From positions 186,001-250,000 of the forward strand of contig NZ_VTRT01000005.1 in assembly GCF_008274585.1 (NCBI RefSeq): 64,000 nt of DNA, given 5' to 3'. How positions within the stretch are numbered: position 1 is the first letter of the stretch; every line of letters begins with the position of its first letter. The notes under the pieces were generated by a model. It was not told the origin of the DNA and ran no database searches. It worked only from the letters and a program-made list of their open reading frames with translations. The translations under genes were made by a program, and so were the position numbers. Shown piece after piece: positions 5,930 to 16,815 of this stretch. The DNA comes from Pedobacter sp. BS3. Lineage in GTDB: Bacteria; Bacteroidota; Bacteroidia; Sphingobacteriales; Sphingobacteriaceae.

Positions 5930-8900
5930 ATGACTACAAACTGTTCGGGAAACAAAACCAGGCTAAAGGCGCTGGCATTAATGTGTTTTCTCTCATTGTC
6001 GTTTGCTTTAAACTCTGGCCTGGCACAGGCTGGCTCAGGGCGGGTAAGAGAAGAGAAGCTTGTTAATGTGTTAGACATGCTAAAAAAGAAGTATCACAAA
6101 ACATTTGTTTATGAAGCTTCAACTATTGATTTAAGTACTACTGTAAGGTTTAATGAAACTGCAACATCGCTTGAAGAAATATTAAAACAATTTTCTGCTA
6201 TCGGTATAGGGTATGAAATACTTGATAACATCATAGTCTTAAAGAAAATTGCATCCAAAAGTACGGCACCGGTACAAAAAACTATTAAAGGACGCGTGGT
6301 AACTTCCACAAATGGTGAGCAGGAAATCCTGGCGGGGGTAATTGTTACCGAAAAGGGAACGAAGAATACCACCGTAACTAACGCTGCCGGGGAGTTTCGT
6401 ATATCGGTTGGTAGCAATGCCGTGTTGGTTTTTACCATGATTGGCTTCAAACCTAAAGAGGTACCAGCTACCGATAATCTCCTTGTGGTTCTTGAAACAG
6501 ATGTGATCAGCTTGAATGAGATCGTAGTATCGGATGGCTATCAAAGTATTGATAAAAAATTATATACCGGGGCGGCTGCCACTATAAAGGGCTCTACAGT
6601 AAAGCAAGAGGGAATTACAGACATAAGCCGTATGCTTGAGGGACGGGTAGCTGGTTTAAATATTCAGAACGTTTCAGGAACTTTTGGCTCAGCGCCCAAA
6701 ATCAGGATCAGGGGCGTTACCTCAATTTCGGGTGATAATAAGCCACTATGGGTTATTGATGGTGTGATTTTAGAAGATGTGGTGAATGTAACCAATGATC
6801 AGCTTGCCAGTGGTAATGCACTAACATTATTAGGATCATCGGTAGCTGGAATTAATGTGGAAGACATTGAGAGCTTTGACATATTGCAGGATGCCTCGGC
6901 AACAGCTTTATACGGCGCAAGGGCTATGAATGGGGTAGTGGTGATAAACACTAAAAAAGGCCGTCAGGGGAAACCATCTGTATCGTACACAGGAAGTTAT
7001 TCCACTTATCTAAAGCCATCTTACAATAGCCTTAACATAATGAATTCACGCGATCAGATGGCAGTTTATCAAAGCATGCAGGATAAATATTACCTGAAAT
7101 ATGGCCCTGCAAAGAACCAGGCTACCGGGGGAATCTTTACCAAAATGGCCAACCTTATTAGTACGCCAGATGCTAATGGAAATTTTGCTGTAGAAAATAC
7201 GCCCGAGGGCAGAGCGTCATTTCTGCAGCGTTACGCGGAGGCTAATACTGATTGGTTCGACATTCTGTTTAAGAATTCATTGTTACAAAAACATTCATTT
7301 AATGTGCAATCCGGTAATGAAAAGTCAACCAATTACCTCTCTGTTTCATTGACCAATGATGACGGTTGGACAGTAGGCAATAATTTAAAGTTATATACCG
7401 CACGGAACCGATCTACCTATCAATTCTCAAAAAAGGTTTCTCTGGATATGATGCTTAACGGTTCTATACGGAAGCAACGGTCTCCCGGTACTGTAAACCG
7501 GATAACCAACCTGGTGTTAGGAGCATATTCCCGCGATTTTGATATTAACCCGTATAGCTATGCGCTCAGCACCAGCAGAGCTTTAACAGCTTACGATGAG
7601 AATGGCAACCTGGAGTTTTTTACTAAGAATTATGCCCCGTTTAACATCTTGTATGAACTTGATAACAATTATATGAACCTGACCCAGCAGGATGTAAGTG
7701 CTCAGGCAGAAATTTCATATAAAATTATCAAAGGGCTTGAATACAGGATACTTGGTTCGGTACGGCATGTTAAAACCACTAATGAGCATATTATTAAAGA
7801 AAGTGCAAATGCGGCAGAAGCCTATCGGGCAGACTATAACGGCGCTATAAGAAGTGCCAATAAATATTTGTACCGGGATCCTGATGACCCTGAAGCAGTT
7901 GAGCGAACTACTGTATTGCCACAAGGGGGATTTTATGATCGTACAGATGACTATATGATTAATTATTACGGCCGCCAGTTACTTACTTACCGAAAAACTT
8001 TTGCCAATAAGCACATCATAGATGTATTGGCAGGGCAGGAGATCAAATATACCGACAGGCAAAATTCATTTAGTAATGGTTATGGCTATCAATATGATAA
8101 AGGTGGTATTCCCTTTATTGATTACCGCCTGGTTAAAAAGAACCTGGAATCTAACGATTACTATTATGGAATGAGCATGGATTACGATCGCTATGTGGCA
8201 CTATTCTCCAAAGCAACCTATTCATATAACGGTAAATATATTATTAATGGTTCGGCAAGGTATGATGGGTCAAATCGTATGGGGGCGTCACGCACAGCTC
8301 GCTGGTTACCCACCTGGACAGTTGGTGCAGCATGGAACGCGGACGAAGAGCCATTTATAAAAGGAATACCATCTATTAGCTATTTAAAAATCAGGGCCAC
8401 TTACGGCTTAACTGCCAGTGTTGGTAATGCCAGAAATTCTACGGTAAGGTTAGGGTATTCCAATACACCGCGACCGTATGCTGATGTTGAGTCGAGCATC
8501 TATATTGCGGGTTTAGAAAATTCAGATCTAACGTGGGAAAAGCAGCACGAAATGAACCTGGGGTTTGATATTGGCTTATTCAAAAATAAAGTAAACTTTA
8601 CATTAGACCTTTATGATCGAAGCTCCTTTGACCTGATCAGTGCCGTACAAACCTCCGGAATTGGGGGCGAAAGCGTTAAAACAGCAAACTATGCCGATCT
8701 TAAATCACATGGTATTGCGGCTACATTAACCAATAGTTTTATTCGAAATAAAGATGTAAACTGGTCTGCCACCTTAACATTTGCCTATAATGAAAACCGG
8801 ATAAAGAATATGCAAGATAAACCCCGGATCATTGATCTGGTACGACCAGAAGGTGGTGCTCAAAACGGTTATCCTGTAAGCGGGTTATATTCAATTGTAT

Positions 8901-9529
8901 TTGCCGGGCTCGATCATGATACAGGCTTGCCATTGGGTATAGGAACTGACGGAAACCCGACATTGAATATTAATCCGCAAAGTCTCACAACAACGTATCT
9001 TAAATATGAAGGACCCACAGATCCTACCATTACCGGTGGTTTCTCAAGCAGCATACGTTATAAAGAATTGTCGCTGGCGTTTCTGATCTCCTACCAGGCC
9101 GGAAACAGGATAAGACTGGCTAACGCCTTTAGTGGAACCTATAATGATTTCAGCGCAATGCCTAATGAGTTTTTGAACCGTTGGCAAATGCCTGGCGATG
9201 AGGCTTATACCAATATACCCGCTATAGTAGACGATCGCACGTATTCTACTGTAAACGGCTATCCTTATTCTTCTTATAATTATACGGATATAAGAACCGT
9301 GGATGGTGGCTTTGTAAGGTTAAAAAATGTCTCTGTTGAATATGCACCTGCCAAGTTGGGAAGTCGTATTGGACTGAAAAATTTTGCTGTCGCATTAAAT
9401 GCAACAAACCTGTGGCTCATTTATGCAGATAAACGATTACATGGCCAGGATCCGGAATTTTACAACTCGGGCGGTGTAGCCTCACCCCTGGCACAACAGT
9501 TTACACTCTCTTTAAAAGTTGGTATCTAA
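5930..9529 (+). CDS. SusC/RagA-family TonB-dependent receptor with STN signalling domain
   Basis: 1199-residue outer-membrane importer. Order: signal peptide (about 1-36), STN domain (about 38-107, EEKLVNVLDMLKKKYHKTFV), carboxypeptidase-regulatory-like beta domain (about 118-185), plug with RIRGVTSISGDNKPLWVIDG and the SusC signature DASATALYGARAMNGVV (about 320-335), then a 22-strand barrel to the terminus (QQFTLSLKVGI). The STN domain links the receptor to the FecR protein encoded just upstream. Paired SusD follows at once. The imported substrate is unknown; neighbours point to peptides rather than glycans. Confidence 0.95.
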   Translation: MTTNCSGNKTRLKALALMCFLSLSFALNSGLAQAGSGRVREEKLVNVLDMLKKKYHKTFVYEASTIDLSTTVRFNETATSLEEILKQFSAIGIGYEILDNIIVLKKIASKSTAPVQKTIKGRVVTSTNGEQEILAGVIVTEKGTKNTTVTNAAGEFRISVGSNAVLVFTMIGFKPKEVPATDNLLVVLETDVISLNEIVVSDGYQSIDKKLYTGAAATIKGSTVKQEGITDISRMLEGRVAGLNIQNVSGTFGSAPKIRIRGVTSISGDNKPLWVIDGVILEDVVNVTNDQLASGNALTLLGSSVAGINVEDIESFDILQDASATALYGARAMNGVVVINTKKGRQGKPSVSYTGSYSTYLKPSYNSLNIMNSRDQMAVYQSMQDKYYLKYGPAKNQATGGIFTKMANLISTPDANGNFAVENTPEGRASFLQRYAEANTDWFDILFKNSLLQKHSFNVQSGNEKSTNYLSVSLTNDDGWTVGNNLKLYTARNRSTYQFSKKVSLDMMLNGSIRKQRSPGTVNRITNLVLGAYSRDFDINPYSYALSTSRALTAYDENGNLEFFTKNYAPFNILYELDNNYMNLTQQDVSAQAEISYKIIKGLEYRILGSVRHVKTTNEHIIKESANAAEAYRADYNGAIRSANKYLYRDPDDPEAVERTTVLPQGGFYDRTDDYMINYYGRQLLTYRKTFANKHIIDVLAGQEIKYTDRQNSFSNGYGYQYDKGGIPFIDYRLVKKNLESNDYYYGMSMDYDRYVALFSKATYSYNGKYIINGSARYDGSNRMGASRTARWLPTWTVGAAWNADEEPFIKGIPSISYLKIRATYGLTASVGNARNSTVRLGYSNTPRPYADVESSIYIAGLENSDLTWEKQHEMNLGFDIGLFKNKVNFTLDLYDRSSFDLISAVQTSGIGGESVKTANYADLKSHGIAATLTNSFIRNKDVNWSATLTFAYNENRIKNMQDKPRIIDLVRPEGGAQNGYPVSGLYSIVFAGLDHDTGLPLGIGTDGNPTLNINPQSLTTTYLKYEGPTDPTITGGFSSSIRYKELSLAFLISYQAGNRIRLANAFSGTYNDFSAMPNEFLNRWQMPGDEAYTNIPAIVDDRTYSTVNGYPYSSYNYTDIRTVDGGFVRLKNVSVEYAPAKLGSRIGLKNFAVALNATNLWLIYADKRLHGQDPEFYNSGGVASPLAQQFTLSLKVGI

Positions 9530-9539
9530 TATGGGAATA

Positions 9540-11003
9540 ATGAAAAAACTACTTATTTATACAACCAGTACGTTTGTATTATTAAGCACGGGTTGCGAAA
9601 AGTACCTTTCAACGATACCCGATCAAAGGGCTTCGCTTACAACTCCCGAATCTGTTTCAGAGCTATTGGTAAATGCGTACCCGCACGCCAATTACATGCC
9701 TACCTGCGAGGCTATGTCAGATAATGTATCTGAAAATACAGAAATAGCACCTTCACTTTCTAATCTAACAGCCTACAAATGGGAACCCGTAGAAGCTACA
9801 GGCATTGATTGGCAGATTAATTACTGGAATGCATGTTATGAAGCTATTGCGGTCGCTAATCAAGCCCTGGAAACTATTTCGCAGGCAAATGATCCGCAGG
9901 CATACGCGGCACAAAAGGGAGAGGCCCTACTCGCACGTGCATATGCACATTTTATGTTGGTGAACCTTTGGTGTAAGCCATATAATAAAACTACATCAGA
10001 GAGTGATCCTGGTATACCTTACGTTTTGGAGCCCGAAAAGGTAGTGATGAAACGCTATGAACGTAAAACAGTAGCGTATGTATATGAACATATAGAAAAA
10101 GATCTGCTTGAAGGTTTGCCGCTGATAAATGATGCTTCTTACAAAAAGCCTGCGTTCCATTTTAATAAACGTGCGGCTTATGCATTTGCTACCCGCTTTT
10201 ATTTGTTTAAGCAGGACTATGAAAAAACTATTCAGTATGCAGAGTTCGTGTTTCCCAACAATAGCCGGCTTAGTTATCTGCGTGATTGGGTTGCGTATGC
10301 TTCATATACCACTTCTGTAAGAACCAGGTTGTATAATAGCTCATCAGAAAAGACTAACCTCTTATTAGTTGAAGAAATAAGCAGCTGGAGTTTCAATTAT
10401 GGTTCAACTTACAGGTTTAGTGTTTTGCCTCAAACCATGTATTCTTTAACCCTTAAATCGTATAATAACCTGGTTGGCACAGATCTGGCCTACGTTACGG
10501 TAAATAGTAATGGCAGTATATACGTATCAAAGTTTTTTGCCAACTTCATAAGTCCGCTCAATTCTAACTTAGGTAACTATTACCTGTCATTGCCCCTGCT
10601 AACAGCAGATGAAGTAGTATTTAATGAAGCAGAAGCGTATGCTATGCAAGATCAATACACCGAAGCCCTTGATCTGTTAAATACTATTCTCAGCAAAAAA
10701 ATTAAATCATATAACCCGGCTACTCATAATCTTACCCTGCAAAAGGTAAGAAGCCATTATCCGGGTCAGGATGATAGAACGGCTATGGTAAATGCAGTGC
10801 TTGAGCTTAAACGAATTGAGTTTATGCATGAGGGGCTTAGGTGGTTTGATATTTTGCGCAAGGGAATAACTGTTGTGCATCCTGTTGCCGATATGAGTAT
10901 AACCGGCAATTTTAATACCGTTCTGGGGCCTGACGACCCCCGCAGGCAAATTCAGCTGCCTCCTTTAACCGTACTTGCAGGTTTAGAACCCAATCCAAGA
11001 TAA
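9540..11003 (+). CDS. SusD/RagB-family substrate-binding lipoprotein
   Basis: About 487 residues. Lipoprotein signal MKKLLIYTTSTFVLLSTGC with the acylated Cys at 19; SusD-like TPR helices through the body (NYWNACYEAIAVANQALE, GEALLARAYAHFMLVNLWC) and the C-terminal RagB/SusD motif MHEGLRWFDILRKG. It forms the surface lid over the SusC barrel and selects substrate. Start: ATG 9540 gives a clean lipoprotein signal 10 bp after the susC stop; ATG 9531 in the same frame (adding MGI) is also possible. It is translated with susC in one operon. Confidence 0.95.
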   Translation: MKKLLIYTTSTFVLLSTGCEKYLSTIPDQRASLTTPESVSELLVNAYPHANYMPTCEAMSDNVSENTEIAPSLSNLTAYKWEPVEATGIDWQINYWNACYEAIAVANQALETISQANDPQAYAAQKGEALLARAYAHFMLVNLWCKPYNKTTSESDPGIPYVLEPEKVVMKRYERKTVAYVYEHIEKDLLEGLPLINDASYKKPAFHFNKRAAYAFATRFYLFKQDYEKTIQYAEFVFPNNSRLSYLRDWVAYASYTTSVRTRLYNSSSEKTNLLLVEEISSWSFNYGSTYRFSVLPQTMYSLTLKSYNNLVGTDLAYVTVNSNGSIYVSKFFANFISPLNSNLGNYYLSLPLLTADEVVFNEAEAYAMQDQYTEALDLLNTILSKKIKSYNPATHNLTLQKVRSHYPGQDDRTAMVNAVLELKRIEFMHEGLRWFDILRKGITVVHPVADMSITGNFNTVLGPDDPRRQIQLPPLTVLAGLEPNPR

Positions 11004-11011
11004 TTATAATT

Positions 11012-11887
11012 ATGAAAAAGATTTATTTATATGCATTAATTGGGACGCTCGCCATAAGCGTATTGAACAGTTGTTCAGATAATAAAGAAGATTTAAGCAA
11101 GCCAATTTATGGTTTGGGAGGCGTTAGTGTTCCGCGGACTCATGTTGATTCTCTAATTTATGAAACCTATACCAAGCCGTATAATATTGATGTGAAATAT
11201 CGTTGGGATGCAGGAGCTATGGGATATACCACGGTACTGGTACCAGCCGATGAGTCAAAAGTATTACCTGTAATGAACATTCTGAAAAAAGGATGGATAG
11301 AGCCCTTCTCAGAAGTGGTAGGCGAAGATTTCGTTAAAAGATATATACCCAAGCAATATGTATTGATTGGAAGCTACGCTTACACAAGTAGCGGTAATAT
11401 TGTATTGGGCTCCGCGGATCAGGGTTTAGTGGTTAATATTTTTGGTGTTAACCAGTTAAACCTGAAAGGCAAAGGAGATATCTCCCAGATATTAGGTACT
11501 ATTCATCATGAGCTGGCCCACGTATTGCACCAAAATATAATGTATCCTGCAGAATTTGAGCAGGTATGTGCCGGATCGTATAATTCTAACGGATTAAGTG
11601 TATCTACCGCAGATGCCCGGAAGCTTGGGTTCGCGGGAGGATACGGTATGACAGCCCCTAATGAAGATTTTGCCACAATGGTTTCAACCATGCTTAGTAA
11701 TAGCAAAGAAGAGTTTGATGCTATACTGGCTTCAATTCCGGATGATCCGGATGGTACGAATATCGGTCGTGATCGTCTCCGGCAGAAAGAGAATATCATT
11801 ATATCCTATTTTTTGCAGGCTTGGAACATAGATTTTCGTGAGCTTCAGGCAAAAACCTCGGCAGCAAAAGCCGCACTTACTCAATAA
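11012..11887 (+). CDS. Putative zinc-binding metallopeptidase lipoprotein (Peptidase_Mx1-like)
   Basis: 291 residues. Lipoprotein signal with Cys about residue 21 (SVLNSCSDN). Zincin motif HHELAHVLHQN (HExxH, about residue 167), with a downstream acidic helix NEDFATMVSTML that probably gives the third metal ligand. The length and motif match the SusD-linked zinc-binding metallopeptidase family of Bacteroidota. It starts 8 bp after susD and is followed after 13 bp by the DUF4302 gene; those three are a frequent trio. Probably a surface-exposed protease that feeds peptides to SusCD. Substrate unknown. Confidence 0.85.
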   Translation: MKKIYLYALIGTLAISVLNSCSDNKEDLSKPIYGLGGVSVPRTHVDSLIYETYTKPYNIDVKYRWDAGAMGYTTVLVPADESKVLPVMNILKKGWIEPFSEVVGEDFVKRYIPKQYVLIGSYAYTSSGNIVLGSADQGLVVNIFGVNQLNLKGKGDISQILGTIHHELAHVLHQNIMYPAEFEQVCAGSYNSNGLSVSTADARKLGFAGGYGMTAPNEDFATMVSTMLSNSKEEFDAILASIPDDPDGTNIGRDRLRQKENIIISYFLQAWNIDFRELQAKTSAAKAALTQ

Positions 11888-11900
11888 TCTTTAACTCATT

Positions 11901-13226
11901 ATGAAAAAGATTCTCTCTTACATTATCCCGATTATATTGTTAGGTCTGGTTTCGTGCCAGAAACATGATATAGACTTAATATTCGGTGAACCTAATCAGC
12001 GGATTGAAGATACACTCAACATCCGTAATAAAGCATTGCTGGCATCGCCTTATGGTTGGAAAACTATCTTCTCTCCTAAAGGAGGTGGAACATATTTATT
12101 TTATATGCAGTTTCAGGCTGATAATCGTGTATTAATGGTATCAGATCTTAATTCAAATACCACTGTACCAGATACAAGCTCGTATGTCCTAAGAGCTACA
12201 GGTCAGCCTTCGCTGATATTTGATACCTATAATTACCTGCATATTCTATCACATCCTTATAATCCCATAAGTGGTGGCACTGGTGGCCAGGGACGACAAT
12301 CTGACTATGAATTTTATTTTAAGTCTGTTTCTGCAGATAGCATTGTGCTTATAGGGGTTAAGAATCAAAATGTAATGATCCTGAAAAAGGCTACAGAAGA
12401 GGAGGCTGATTTTTATAAAAATGGTGGAATATCAAAAACCATATCCGAAGCGACAAGTGCCTTAAACCGTGCCAGATTATATGTAGATGAAAATGGCAGC
12501 CAGGTTAGTGTTGACCTAAGCTTTGCGCTTAAAACCTTTAGCTTAACACGTACAGATGCTAATAACAATGAGGTAATATCAAGTTCGGCATTTACGTTTG
12601 CTGCCGATGGTCTTGATCTGGTATCACCATTGTTATATAATAATACGCCTTTTAGCAAAGTATACTGGGATAGCACAAATAAGCAATTTTACCTGATGAT
12701 AAATGGCGCAAAGGTGCCTGTTATTGCTGTTGCTCCACCACCCTTACATACATTACTGGATCAGCCTGAATACAAATATTTGGCTGTGGATCCGCCAACC
12801 ATGCCCCAGTATGGTAAGTTTAATGATCTGTTACAGGCAGATATACAGGCTACTACAGATGCAGGGCGGACCTATAATCATTTCTATTTTAACTTTCAAC
12901 CAGGATTATCAAATGGCGCTAATGTAGTGTTTGGCGTTACAACCGCGAGTTCATCCTATTGGATAGAATACAATTATTATAAAATGGAGTATGTTGATGA
13001 AGATGTAGGGATAGTACGTTTTACCTTTATTGGGAATAATGGATCGATTCCGGCAACTCTTCGTTATTCTAAAACACTTCGGGCCTATTTTGAAAGCCAT
13101 ACATTTAAAATAGACTACAGCGATGAGCCAAGTCCTACCGGAAAAATAATGGGTGGGATGACCTGTGTTGAAGAACCCGATGTTTCCTTTTATGGAAGAT
13201 TTGAAGCTGTGTGGAGTAATTGGTAG
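11901..13226 (+). CDS. DUF4302 domain lipoprotein
   Basis: 441 residues. Lipoprotein signal (LLGLVSCQK, Cys about 20), then the DUF4302 opening RIEDTLNIRNKALLASPYGW, beta-rich throughout. Residues about 290-430 end with YYKMEYVDEDVGIVRFTF and LRAYFESHTFKIDY. This C-terminal stretch resembles the C terminus of the next protein (13266-14450). No catalytic motif is visible. DUF4302 proteins commonly sit beside SusCD and Mx1-type zincins; a surface binding or accessory role is plausible but unproven. Confidence 0.82.
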   Translation: MKKILSYIIPIILLGLVSCQKHDIDLIFGEPNQRIEDTLNIRNKALLASPYGWKTIFSPKGGGTYLFYMQFQADNRVLMVSDLNSNTTVPDTSSYVLRATGQPSLIFDTYNYLHILSHPYNPISGGTGGQGRQSDYEFYFKSVSADSIVLIGVKNQNVMILKKATEEEADFYKNGGISKTISEATSALNRARLYVDENGSQVSVDLSFALKTFSLTRTDANNNEVISSSAFTFAADGLDLVSPLLYNNTPFSKVYWDSTNKQFYLMINGAKVPVIAVAPPPLHTLLDQPEYKYLAVDPPTMPQYGKFNDLLQADIQATTDAGRTYNHFYFNFQPGLSNGANVVFGVTTASSSYWIEYNYYKMEYVDEDVGIVRFTFIGNNGSIPATLRYSKTLRAYFESHTFKIDYSDEPSPTGKIMGGMTCVEEPDVSFYGRFEAVWSNW

Positions 13227-13265: not shown

Positions 13266-14450
13266 ATGAAAAAGCCAAAGAAAACAAGTTATGGGAAGCT
13301 GTTTTTATCCATAATTGGAATTGTGTCTGTATGCCTGATATGGGCATGTCAGAAACATTTTATTGAAAACACCGAGGTTGATACAGGTGCCTCCACAAAG
13401 CCTGGGCCGGCCAGGGTGTTGGATCACAAAACCATGCGCTTCAACCTGATCGAATTTGAAAGTGTAATTCCAAATTTTGCGGATAGCGCCGACAAAGCTC
13501 TGGATATTGTAGCCGATGTTTTTTCTTCGCAGGAGTTTAAAGATTCTATTTATAAATATGATTTTCATAGCACGAATGCCTGGAGCTTATATACGCAGCA
13601 ACACTCTTGCCAGGTCTCAGGTTATGGAAACCGTATTCTTAATAAAATTGATTCGGTAACCGGACGGGTTCTGGGTTCAACCGTTTACGCGGATTTAATG
13701 GCAGATAGTGTGGCAGATATACGGCTACACATCTTAGCATCCAGCGGAAGCAGCGGTTACGGTTCAGCAGTGCCTTGTGGGTATATTGTATCGTACGACT
13801 GGTTTTTGCAGGGTACTGATGCTGTTTATCAATACGCGTTGAACATATCCCATGAGTTTTGCCATACATTGGGCTATATGCACGATTCTACCCGCCCGGC
13901 TGGTGAAATTGATGTGGCATATACCGTTGCCGGTATCGTAAAAAATATTCTTCAGCGCAGAAAGAATGAAGAACTGATCAATGGTCGCTCATTTTTACAA
14001 TGTTTACGTACAACCGGGTTTAACTATATGTATGTTAAACCTAACCAACTGGCCGGTCTTTCTCCGGCCTTTATGACGGCGTATGATACGGTTGCCAATC
14101 AATATACCGCTTCTGGTCAGTCATTAAAATATATCTACTTAAAGTTTGAGCCAGGCAACAAGGTTAAGCTCAACTTTTATGTAATAAACTCATCAGGAGC
14201 CTATTATATCCTCAATTTCGAGTATAATATGACAATTAATAATAATGTAGTAACGTTTACATATACTGGCAGCACGAATGCAAATTCGGCTAATGTTACA
14301 AAAACCACGGCGCTAAGAAATTACTTTACAGGTACAAGTTTTACTGCTGATTTTATGACGAATGTTTCAGCGCCGGCCAGCTCAATTATTGGCTCTTTTA
14401 CAGATGTAGCCAACTCTTCCTCGTTTGTTTACGGTGTAATGGCAGATTAA
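13266..14450 (+). CDS. Metzincin-like lipoprotein with DUF4302-like C-terminal domain
   Basis: 394 residues. Lipoprotein signal (CLIWACQKH). Residues about 55-245 hold a zincin domain with HEFCHTLGYMHD, fitting the metzincin pattern HExxHxxGxxH, followed by DVAYTVAGIVKNIL. Residues about 255-390 resemble the DUF4302 C terminus of the upstream gene: KYIYLKFEPG against NHFYFNFQPG, EYNMTINNNVVTFTYTG against EYVDEDVGIVRFTFIG, LRNYFTGTSFTADF against LRAYFESHTFKIDY. The N-terminal half is paralogous to the next gene, which begins at the base after this stop. Likely a surface protease; the family is not one I can name. Confidence 0.72.
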   Translation: MKKPKKTSYGKLFLSIIGIVSVCLIWACQKHFIENTEVDTGASTKPGPARVLDHKTMRFNLIEFESVIPNFADSADKALDIVADVFSSQEFKDSIYKYDFHSTNAWSLYTQQHSCQVSGYGNRILNKIDSVTGRVLGSTVYADLMADSVADIRLHILASSGSSGYGSAVPCGYIVSYDWFLQGTDAVYQYALNISHEFCHTLGYMHDSTRPAGEIDVAYTVAGIVKNILQRRKNEELINGRSFLQCLRTTGFNYMYVKPNQLAGLSPAFMTAYDTVANQYTASGQSLKYIYLKFEPGNKVKLNFYVINSSGAYYILNFEYNMTINNNVVTFTYTGSTNANSANVTKTTALRNYFTGTSFTADFMTNVSAPASSIIGSFTDVANSSSFVYGVMAD

Positions 14451-15128
14451 ATGAAGATCCTCATTGTTTTTTTCCTTCTTGTTGTTACGTGTTTTGCAGA
14501 TATCCGGGGTAAAAGCATTTATCATTATGCTCCCGGACTATCTGTAAATACTAAAGATCGTGCTGTTAAACACAAAAAAGTGAAGTTTAAATTGGGCGAA
14601 TATTCCAGCGAGCTTGATAATTTTCGTGATACGGCAATAAAAGCGCTTCACTTAATGTCTAAAGTTTTTTCTTCAGAGGAGTTCAGAGATTCACTCGATA
14701 AGTATGATTTTCCTTGTTCTAATGGCTGGTATAAACCCTGTAAAACACCCGGTAATCAAATTATAAATAAATGCGATTCTACGGATCATCGGGTTCATGG
14801 TAATACAGTTTATAAAGATCTGTTAATGGAAAAGGTAGTTACACTTAATCTGGCAATTAAACATCCCAAAGGAAAAACCGGAAGCTATGGCTGGTCTGAT
14901 GCCTGTATCTATAAAATAAGCTCGTATTCCTGGTGGCTTAAAAATAACCGGCGGCAACCGCTCTCAGAAGAATATGCCATTCATCTGGCACATGAATACT
15001 GCCACATAGTAGGTTACTATCACAGTCGTGAACATTCACGATCTAATGATGTGGCTTACCGTGTGGGTGGAATTGTGCGTAATATACTGTGGCGATGGTC
15101 GCACTCTAAAGAAAACCCTAATAGTTGA
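14451..15128 (+). CDS. Small metzincin-like protein, paralog of the preceding gene
   Basis: 225 residues with an N-terminal signal (MKILIVFFLLVVTC). It matches the zincin half of the preceding protein: VFSSEEFRDSLDKYDF against VFSSQEFKDSIYKYDF, GNTVYKDLL against GSTVYADLM, and HEYCHIVGYYH (HExxHxxGxxH) followed by NDVAYRVGGIVRNIL. It has no DUF4302-like tail and no convincing lipobox (VVTC), so it is probably periplasmic or secreted rather than anchored. The ATG directly follows the upstream stop codon, which suggests translational coupling. A strong terminator-like hairpin follows at 15134-15173. Confidence 0.72.
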   Translation: MKILIVFFLLVVTCFADIRGKSIYHYAPGLSVNTKDRAVKHKKVKFKLGEYSSELDNFRDTAIKALHLMSKVFSSEEFRDSLDKYDFPCSNGWYKPCKTPGNQIINKCDSTDHRVHGNTVYKDLLMEKVVTLNLAIKHPKGKTGSYGWSDACIYKISSYSWWLKNNRRQPLSEEYAIHLAHEYCHIVGYYHSREHSRSNDVAYRVGGIVRNILWRWSHSKENPNS

Positions 15129-15204: not shown

Positions 15205-16815
15205 ATGAAAAGAACATTACTAATTATCGTTATGCTGTTAATAACAGCCTTTTTAAGAGCTCAGGATGTTGTGATCAATAAACTACATAATGTGAGCAAT
15301 AGCAATGGCGTAAACGATGCTATTGAACTATTAGTAATAAAAGATAAGATGGATATGCGGAATCTTTATATAAAAGAATATACCGCAAGTAATTATACTG
15401 ATCATGCCCCATCCAGCCTTTTTCAGTTTAATAATATTGAATTCTGGAGTAGTTTAGCTTCTGGAACTACCATAGAGATTAGGCGAACCGGCGCTGCTTC
15501 TACAGATATCGATCCCTCAGATAAAATTTTATCTATCTCATTTGATGACCCGGTATACATAACAAGATTATCCGGAACAACCACCATAAATTTAACTAAC
15601 AATGATTTAGTTGTATTAACCCGTTCCGGAGATGACGTTAATTATGCTACACAGGCAATCCATGCTTTTGGCGTAGGCATGAGTAATACGGCGCCGCCTG
15701 CTGTATTTACAAATATTACATCACCTAAGATTCGTACCTCTTTATTATTGTATGGAAATGGGGGATACGTATACCCGTCTTTACCTAATTTCAATAGCAC
15801 TAACCCTGGTTTATCTGATTTTAATAGCTCAGATGATGTGTATGTAACGAATGTTAGAGTAGGGGGAGGAACGGGTGTGCCACCAACATTCGGTACCGGC
15901 GAGCCTGGCAATAATGCAGGTTTTATTACGTATCTGCGAACCCCACTTACTGTTGAAACGGCACCCTCGGCTATTAATTCTTCTACCGAAGTGGTATTTA
16001 AAGCAAAGTTTACAAAAAATGTTACCGGCGTAGATGCCTCCGATTTTGAGGTGTTTGCTACAGGGACGGGCTCAGGAAGTATTTCGGGAGTAACAAAAAT
16101 TGCTGATAATGAATATGATGTTACGGTCTCATCCATTTCGGGTGCAGGAACCTTGCGCCTTGATAAAAAAGCCAGCACTGGCATTACAGATATATTAAGC
16201 GGAATGGCAGATGAAACAGCTTATACTGAAGGTGAGCCGTTTACTATTGGTCAGACATCGCTTCCGGTTACCTTTCTCTCATTTAAAGCAACTGCAGATA
16301 AAGCAGGTTATGTTTTGCTGACCTGGAAAACTGCAGCAGAGAGAAATAATGATTATTTTATCCTGGAAAAATCATCAGATGGCTATAATTTCCAGTTTCT
16401 CACAAAAGCCAATGGCGCAGGCAGTACAGATAAAGAAAGTGCATATTCTTTTATAGACCGTACACCCTTTGCCGGAACTACCTATTACAGGTTAAGCCAG
16501 GTTGATAAAGATGGCCATAAAGAAATACTGGCGATTGCCGAACAGGCAAGTAGTTTCAATACAGGCGATGCCGTTGTAATTTATCCGGTTCCTTCTAATG
16601 AGCAGCTTAATATAAAATTTAATGCTCAGGGCGATAATACTGCCAGCATTAAAATTCTGGATCTGAGTGGAAAAGTAGTGTTGAATAATAATTATAAGAT
16701 CAATAATCAGTTGGTATCGCTTTCGTTGGGACAGCAGTTAAATTCTGGAACTTACCTGGCAGTTATAGAACGCGATAAAAGCATTGTTACCAAAACATTT
16801 ACAGTTGTTAAATAA
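15205..16815 (+). CDS. Secreted T9SS type A sorting-domain protein
   Basis: 536 residues. Signal peptide (MKRTLLIIVMLLITAFLRA), an N-terminal beta domain (about 20-250) opening VVINKLHNVSNSNGVNDAIELLVIK in lamin-tail style, an Ig-like domain about 255-345, a linker domain LPVTFLSFKATADKAGYVLL about 350-440, and a C-terminal sorting domain (YPVPSNEQLNIKF ... SGTYLAVIERDKSIVTKTFTV) typical of type IX secretion cargo. No enzyme motif is visible; a substrate-binding or adhesive role is inferred. The M28 peptidase gene follows 5 bp downstream. Confidence 0.85.
   Translation: MKRTLLIIVMLLITAFLRAQDVVINKLHNVSNSNGVNDAIELLVIKDKMDMRNLYIKEYTASNYTDHAPSSLFQFNNIEFWSSLASGTTIEIRRTGAASTDIDPSDKILSISFDDPVYITRLSGTTTINLTNNDLVVLTRSGDDVNYATQAIHAFGVGMSNTAPPAVFTNITSPKIRTSLLLYGNGGYVYPSLPNFNSTNPGLSDFNSSDDVYVTNVRVGGGTGVPPTFGTGEPGNNAGFITYLRTPLTVETAPSAINSSTEVVFKAKFTKNVTGVDASDFEVFATGTGSGSISGVTKIADNEYDVTVSSISGAGTLRLDKKASTGITDILSGMADETAYTEGEPFTIGQTSLPVTFLSFKATADKAGYVLLTWKTAAERNNDYFILEKSSDGYNFQFLTKANGAGSTDKESAYSFIDRTPFAGTTYYRLSQVDKDGHKEILAIAEQASSFNTGDAVVIYPVPSNEQLNIKFNAQGDNTASIKILDLSGKVVLNNNYKINNQLVSLSLGQQLNSGTYLAVIERDKSIVTKTFTVVK

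Follow-up and report, generated by a model that had tools for sequence, protein, structure and literature searches.

A gene on the forward strand (13266-14450) of the 64-kb stretch of DNA analyzed here, which we call the window, appears to encode a secreted and probably lipid-anchored zinc-protease-like protein fused to a C-terminal binding module. We propose that this module, hereafter the tail, is a barrel that has moved among the lipoproteins of SusCD operons, and we give this reading a probability of about 0.6. It includes the proposal that the tail is a standard part of lipoproteins encoded beside SusC and SusD in Sphingobacteriaceae and related Bacteroidota.

Surface machines composed of SusCD and lipoproteins are known (“utilisomes”). 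Hundreds of SusCD operons encode extra lipoproteins that bear DUF names and have no assigned function. One mobile barrel on DUF4302, Mx1, zincin, and DUF4843-like proteins would offer a single experimental handle on all of them, and the ligand of this 150-residue barrel, once found, would give several families a role together. The analysis further delineates a small family of zincins and a fusion, neither of which has a name in current family libraries. A literature search of open-access texts found no paper on the tail domain or on the zincin family.

Organization of the operon and of the fusion gene

The fusion gene resides in an operon whose genes all lie on the forward strand. The order begins with a SusC-like TonB-dependent transporter (5930-9529; Pfam Plug, 9.6e-14; CarbopepD_reg_2, 2.2e-12) and a SusD-like lipoprotein (9519-11003; Pfam SusD-like_3, 4.3e-37). 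These are followed by a 291-aa zinc lipoprotein of the Peptidase_Mx1/TIGR04549 type (11012-11887; PF15890, 9.3e-73; TIGR04549, 6.1e-76), a 441-aa DUF4302 lipoprotein (11901-13226; PF14135, 2.2e-45 over residues 30-257), the 394-aa open reading frame of the zincin-tail fusion, and a 225-aa tail-less zincin paralog (14451-15128). A gap of 39 bases separates the DUF4302 stop codon from the start of the fusion gene, and the tail-less zincin gene begins immediately 3′ of the fusion gene's stop codon. Directly downstream from the operon, the gene at 15205-16815 carries a type IX sorting domain recognized by both Pfam and NCBIfam, and a gene for an M28 peptidase (Pfam) is located farther downstream in the window.

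Three regions can be distinguished in the fusion protein: an N-terminal signal-like stretch (residues 1-28; 13266-13349), evident from its sequence and modeled as a helix over residues 9-28; a zincin domain (residues 50-240; 13413-13985); and the tail (residues 241-394; 13986-14447), which is supported by homology and is predicted to be a lipocalin-like barrel. The N-terminal stretch ends in the lipobox-like sequence LIWAC, in which the W before the A departs at one position from the consensus [LVI][ASTVI][GAS]C given in PMC7857515. The protein matched 0 Pfam families and 0 NCBIfam models at E<=1. Assignment to DUF4302 or to Mx1 was rejected because no match to PF14135, PF15890, or TIGR04549 was observed at this threshold.

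A small family of zincins

The front domain is similar to the product of the next gene (43% identity over 187 alignment columns; E 2e-44). Within it is the zinc-binding motif HEFCHTLGYMH (residues 196-206; 13851-13883). Of 38 gathered relatives, 36 retain HExxHxxG, and the third ligand among these is H in 34 and D in two. The form common to the relatives is HE[FYW]xHxxG[FY]xH, with a D/VPYxxG-like segment after it.

The initial annotation had called this domain a metzincin. The HExxHxxGxxH zinc motif agrees with that name, but the conserved Met-turn residue does not appear: it was looked for downstream of the motif in 36 relatives and none was found. In 16 of the 36, the domain has a Met of any kind among the 60 residues that follow the motif, at varying positions, and the fusion protein itself has none in this interval of its sequence. 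Judged from these sequence patterns, the front domain is a zincin with a metzincin-like motif.

This domain belongs to a small family of zincins that falls outside the models of Pfam and NCBIfam. When 26 zincins were compared with Pfam at E<=0.1, no family matched more than three of them (Astacin matched three, Reprolysin_5 two, and SprT-like one), and NCBIfam models gave isolated weak matches to zincin members. The zincin half of the fusion is poorly modeled by AlphaFold (block pLDDT 38-81 over residues 61-250), so the case for catalysis rests on the motif.

The family is sparsely distributed. A search with the zincin alignment matched eight of 295 genomes from the class, including the window's own, and 46 of 400 from the order. 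Ten of these 46 fall below E 1e-40, among them the window's own genome and G599, a genome from the same family but a different genus; many of the remaining matches are weak and lie on the motif region of longer zincins. A full-length match to the fusion protein was observed in its own genome alone when this genome and 150 relatives were searched, and in G599 alone among 145 genomes of its genus. Likewise, tailed zincins were encountered in two genomes among the zincin loci read, those of the window and G599.

Two further zincin settings were observed. In a locus elsewhere in the window's own genome (L018 4897-6262; C12:472908-474228), two tandem tail-less zincins adjoin another SusC/SusD pair and are followed by N-formylglutamate-amidohydrolase-like, M14 carboxypeptidase, M28-peptidase-like, and gamma-glutamyltranspeptidase-like genes; this is likely to be a second locus for peptide use. 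Several other loci (L008, L199, L200, L202, L204, and L028) encode small zincins of 163-172 aa that have no obvious signal sequence and that keep the HExxHxxGxxH and VPYxxG pattern. The setting of L008 is unlike that of SusCD operons.

Homology of the two tails

The initial annotation proposed that the C terminus of the fusion protein resembles that of the neighboring DUF4302 protein, and this is confirmed. BLASTP aligned residues 281-390 of the fusion protein with residues 319-432 of the DUF4302 protein at 28% identity over 115 positions, with 43.5 bits and an E value of 5e-9 for the single comparison. A Smith-Waterman alignment of the two window tails scored 116. Shuffled sequences gave a mean score of 34.0 (sd 6.0, maximum 70), and none of 2000 shuffles reached the score of the tails, which rules out chance similarity.

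Profile methods agree with these pairwise results. A profile of 105 DUF4302 tails matched residues 249-393 of the fusion protein (E 7.7e-23) and a profile of 79 Mx1 tails matched residues 249-394 (E 5.7e-22), both at Z 5000 and both with the window and G599 sequences left out. Besides the fusion, the DUF4302 protein alone was listed at E<=1 when the 73 open reading frames of the window were compared with the two profiles. In addition, hhalign paired the single fusion tail with each profile at 98.9% probability. Because the tails behind both profiles came from an iterated search whose seed alignment included the window tails, the shuffle test and BLASTP serve as the independent evidence. The secondary structure predicted for the two tails also has its elements in a common order (one helix, then four strands, a pair of short helices, and three strands), and the AlphaFold models of the two proteins were built from different alignments.

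On this basis, we regard residues 241-394 of the fusion protein as homologous to residues 284-441 of the DUF4302 protein (12750-13223). The shared part extends over about 150 residues, somewhat more than the roughly 130 originally estimated. The domain lies outside PF14135 (residues 30-257), and the name “DUF4302 tail” is too narrow because in the loci analyzed the domain is just as frequent on Mx1 proteins.

Predicted fold of the tail

The tail is modeled with confidence in the fusion protein (block pLDDT 82-98 over residues 251-394). The model of the DUF4302 protein (ma16c2a3f1293) has a mean pLDDT of 85.8, with values of 63-92 over residues 281-440 of its tail region and 47 at the last residue. 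A Foldseek search with the fusion model returned plant fibrillin 5 (9jwr) as the best match (E 3.1e-4), followed by periplasmic domains of ToxS and by lipocalins. Via realignment, fibrillin 5 reached Z 10.4 over 131 residues (3.0 A, 12% sequence identity), and realignment on residues 241-394 gave Z 9.0 for 4qrl, 8.1 for 4zgf, 8.0 for 5byp, and 7.8 for 4i95; a Z of 7-8 is common as a best score without kinship, and the best tail scores (10.4 and 9.0) are modestly above this level. These matches suggest that the tail is a lipocalin-like barrel.

Matches to the Protein Data Bank for the DUF4302 model span three ranges, residues 37-170, 176-279, and 284-435. The last of these, the tail, matched ToxS (8.1), 4qrl (7.3), and 5byp (6.8), and the N-terminal part (window 11901-12740) is modeled as two barrel-like units that precede it. 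Thus, DUF4302 proteins may consist of three barrels in a row, with the last being the mobile one. Sliding clamps were the top low-probability Foldseek rows for this model and were taken as a chance stacking of barrels. Matches to cytochrome c oxidase (E 0.0014) from a sequence-based search of solved structures were likewise set aside as chance, since they were not repeated with a 14-row profile.

Host range and mobility of the tail

Proteins with different front domains carry the tail. The distinct proteins in the analyzed loci included 107 with the architecture DUF4302-tail, 77 Mx1-tail, three zincin-tail, two Mx1-tail-tail, and four tail-tail, together with 52 Mx1, 37 DUF4302, and 15 zincin proteins in which no tail was detected; these counts come from a biased set, in which many loci were fetched via tail or DUF4302 matches and some proteins are cut at locus ends. 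Six more proteins consist of the tail only; four are truncated by the end of a locus and two are real (L077 and L078). The DUF4302 proteins in which no tail was detected are similar in length (421-464 aa), and their tails may merely have diverged. Mx1 proteins that end in the same tail are encoded by a second such operon in the window's own genome (C22) and by G016, G060, G052, and G012. The window's own Mx1 lipoprotein gave no match to the tail profiles and stops where the tail would start.

Tandem tails occur as well. In L071-L074, two tails come after an N-terminal region 127-192 aa in length; among these tail-tail proteins, one matches DUF4843 weakly (E 1.1e-5, short of the cut-off) and another gives no such match. 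The tandem-tail genes of L071 and L072 are located after a SusD-like gene. Two Peptidase_Mx1 proteins also bear two consecutive tails (L075 5108-7123 and L076 2393-4378).

Among whole genomes, the tail profile matched 73 of 251 from the window's family and three in a sample of 295 from the class; these three also belong to the window's family. Tails are present in Chitinophagaceae and other families, which means that the profile misses distant tails. A search of PHROGs gave no match below E 0.1, and a search of viral contigs returned one short locus (L229).

In a tree of 99 tails (53 from DUF4302 proteins, 37 from Mx1 proteins, three from zincins, and six others), the host types are interleaved. 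The tree requires at least nine host changes for DUF4302 and at least 11 for Mx1; the starred branches by themselves demand four and six, respectively. It has long branches and a bootstrap that is not fully settled. This interleaving supports repeated movement of the tail, as read from sequence, among the hosts of SusCD operons, namely DUF4302, Peptidase_Mx1, zincin, and DUF4843-like proteins. The idea that the tail is a portable domain, also put forward in the initial annotation, is therefore borne out by its presence on these hosts and on short lipoproteins. In one operon of another genome (G501; L098 14676-17427), the Mx1 and DUF4302 tails form a sister pair in this tree (97/52), which perhaps represents another exchange within an operon.

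Sharing of tails within an operon

The G599 genome has an operon orthologous to that of the window. The two share 69% identity for SusC, 68% for SusD, 72% for Mx1, 60% for DUF4302, and 71% for the tail-less last zincin, and the Mx1 protein of G599 also lacks the tail. Its zincin genes number three, two with a tail and one without, and a gene for gamma-glutamyltranspeptidase follows them.

The tails of the two G599 zincins share 63% and 64% identity with the DUF4302 tail of their own operon and 54% with each other, and the zincin domains to which they are joined share 36%. Slow evolution of the tail does not explain these values, because the N domains and tails of the orthologous DUF4302 proteins of the window and G599 have diverged about equally (59% and 61% identity). 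The comparison thus directly supports the view that the zincin tails of G599 were copied or homogenized after the zincin genes had diverged.

The tail of the window's zincin presents a different picture. It is 28% identical to the tail of its DUF4302 neighbor and 24-27% identical to the tails of G599, and in BLAST it scores highest (55 bits) against tails from other operons, on both DUF4302 and Mx1 proteins, vs. 44 with that of its neighbor. Because the two window tails are only 28% identical and tails from other operons score as well or better, the event in the window is older or involved another route or source. The initial suggestion that duplication or recombination spread the tail inside the operon is supported directly in G599.

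On the tail tree, the three zincin tails form one group (97/83) together with the tails of two DUF4302 proteins, those from the window and G599, and a long-branched Mx1 tail, L181. A single clade of the three tailed zincins is not the best tree but is not rejected (p-AU 0.09), so that the tail may have been captured once or twice.

Proposed role and alternative explanations

If the fusion protein functions as its parts suggest, the N-terminal signal, read from the sequence, would export it, and the protein would probably be held at the surface by a lipid anchor despite the departure of LIWAC from the lipobox consensus. The zincin domain, whose peptidase activity is deduced from its motif, would then act at the cell surface and cleave peptides or proteins there. 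The tail would keep the zincin at its work site through affinity for the substrate or for a partner in the SusCD complex. A surface-binding domain is plausible given the lipocalin-like barrel predicted for the tail and its SusC/SusD surroundings.

The diet of the operon would be peptides or proteins, as indicated by neighboring peptidase-type genes: the M28 gene in the window, the gamma-glutamyltranspeptidase gene in G599, and, in the vicinity of other zincins, genes for an M14 carboxypeptidase and for an N-formylglutamate-amidohydrolase-like protein. In iron-related tables for B. thetaiotaomicron (PMC10434189), the DUF4302 protein BT3961 and BT3958-59 have a negative fold change.

The tail could instead serve as a docking domain that binds no substrate and plugs different lipoproteins onto one SusCD transporter as subunits of a machine. 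Hosts with different front domains carry the tail within one operon, and in the loci read it occurs almost only beside SusC/SusD genes, both of which favor this reading; however, L077 and L078 carry it away from any SusCD pair within the 6 kb read. A second DUF4302 or zincin-tail gene is also present in 11 of 46 operons with a short Mx1 vs. none of 37 with a long Mx1 (Fisher p 0.0009), but this contrast is not independent of descent, and with one independent pair a sign test cannot reach significance. The link between a tail-less Mx1 and an extra tail carrier does not survive correction for descent and was accordingly retained solely for the broader proposal that follows. We consider a docking role unlikely, although less so than the export and convergence readings below.

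A broader version of this idea is equally tentative. The tail may be a universal adaptor of peptide-utilizing SusCD machines, a docking or capture barrel handed on among subunits, whose number an operon keeps while its catalytic heads (Mx1, the present zincin, or a second DUF4302) are exchanged. If this speculation is true, the operons of the window and G599, where Mx1 has no tail and new zincins have one, would represent an exchange caught after the fact. Loss of the tail by Mx1 in the window's lineage was also considered and not retained. The Mx1 proteins of the window and G599 fall among long, tailed Mx1 proteins (87/86, unstarred), and a tree that places all long Mx1 proteins together is not rejected (p-AU 0.12).

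The initial annotation had offered export as another role for the tail, which would make it a sorting signal like the C-terminal domains of type IX secretion. The tail is indeed C-terminal, and one gene in the window (15205-16815) encodes a type IX sorting domain. The scans that recognize this domain, though, gave no Por_Secre_tail, TIGR04183, or CHU_C match in either the fusion or the DUF4302 protein, and the tail measures about 150 aa and is barrel-like by prediction. Moreover, each tailed zincin begins with a signal-like stretch of its own, zincins that lack the tail appear no less secreted, and tails that occur in tandem are also internal in such proteins. An export function is for these reasons very improbable.

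The weakest alternative, that two beta-barrels converged on their similarity rather than inheriting it, can draw on the low identity of the window tails (28%) and on the chance alignments possible between beta-rich domains, but it is scarcely credible given that 0 of 2000 shuffles reach the tail-tail score, that profiles built without window and G599 sequences still match at 7.7e-23 and 5.7e-22, and that the zincin and DUF4302 tails of G599 are 63-64% identical. A zinc-protease-like protein with a mobile binding barrel remains the preferred reading of the fusion.

Comparison with known systems

Among solved structures, the predicted fold of the tail resembles the Bacteroides lipocalin-like proteins 4qrl (BACUNI_01346; 102 of 110 residues, 7% sequence identity), 4i95 (4%), and 4zgf (DUF4847; 7%). 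Unlike the tail, these proteins and fibrillin 5 (9jwr) are single-domain proteins or are found in another context. For the front domain, the profile of 26 zincins matches HomA (PDB 9tpy) at E 4.8e-4 over 142 positions and other metzincins at E 0.03 or worse. The zincin family differs from HomA and other HExxHxxGxxH peptidases in having no conserved Met-turn residue and in being much shorter.

Within SusCD operons, DUF4302 (PF14135) proteins share with the fusion protein the C-terminal domain of about 150 aa, the same operon, and a lipoprotein-like signal, but the fusion protein does not have their N-terminal Pfam domain. The Peptidase_Mx1/TIGR04549 proteins are zinc-motif lipoproteins of SusCD operons. 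They differ in that their zincin family is a separate one and in that the window's own Mx1 has no tail. In many relatives they end with the same tail, and this combination of a zinc enzyme with the tail is the closest architecture to that of the fusion protein.
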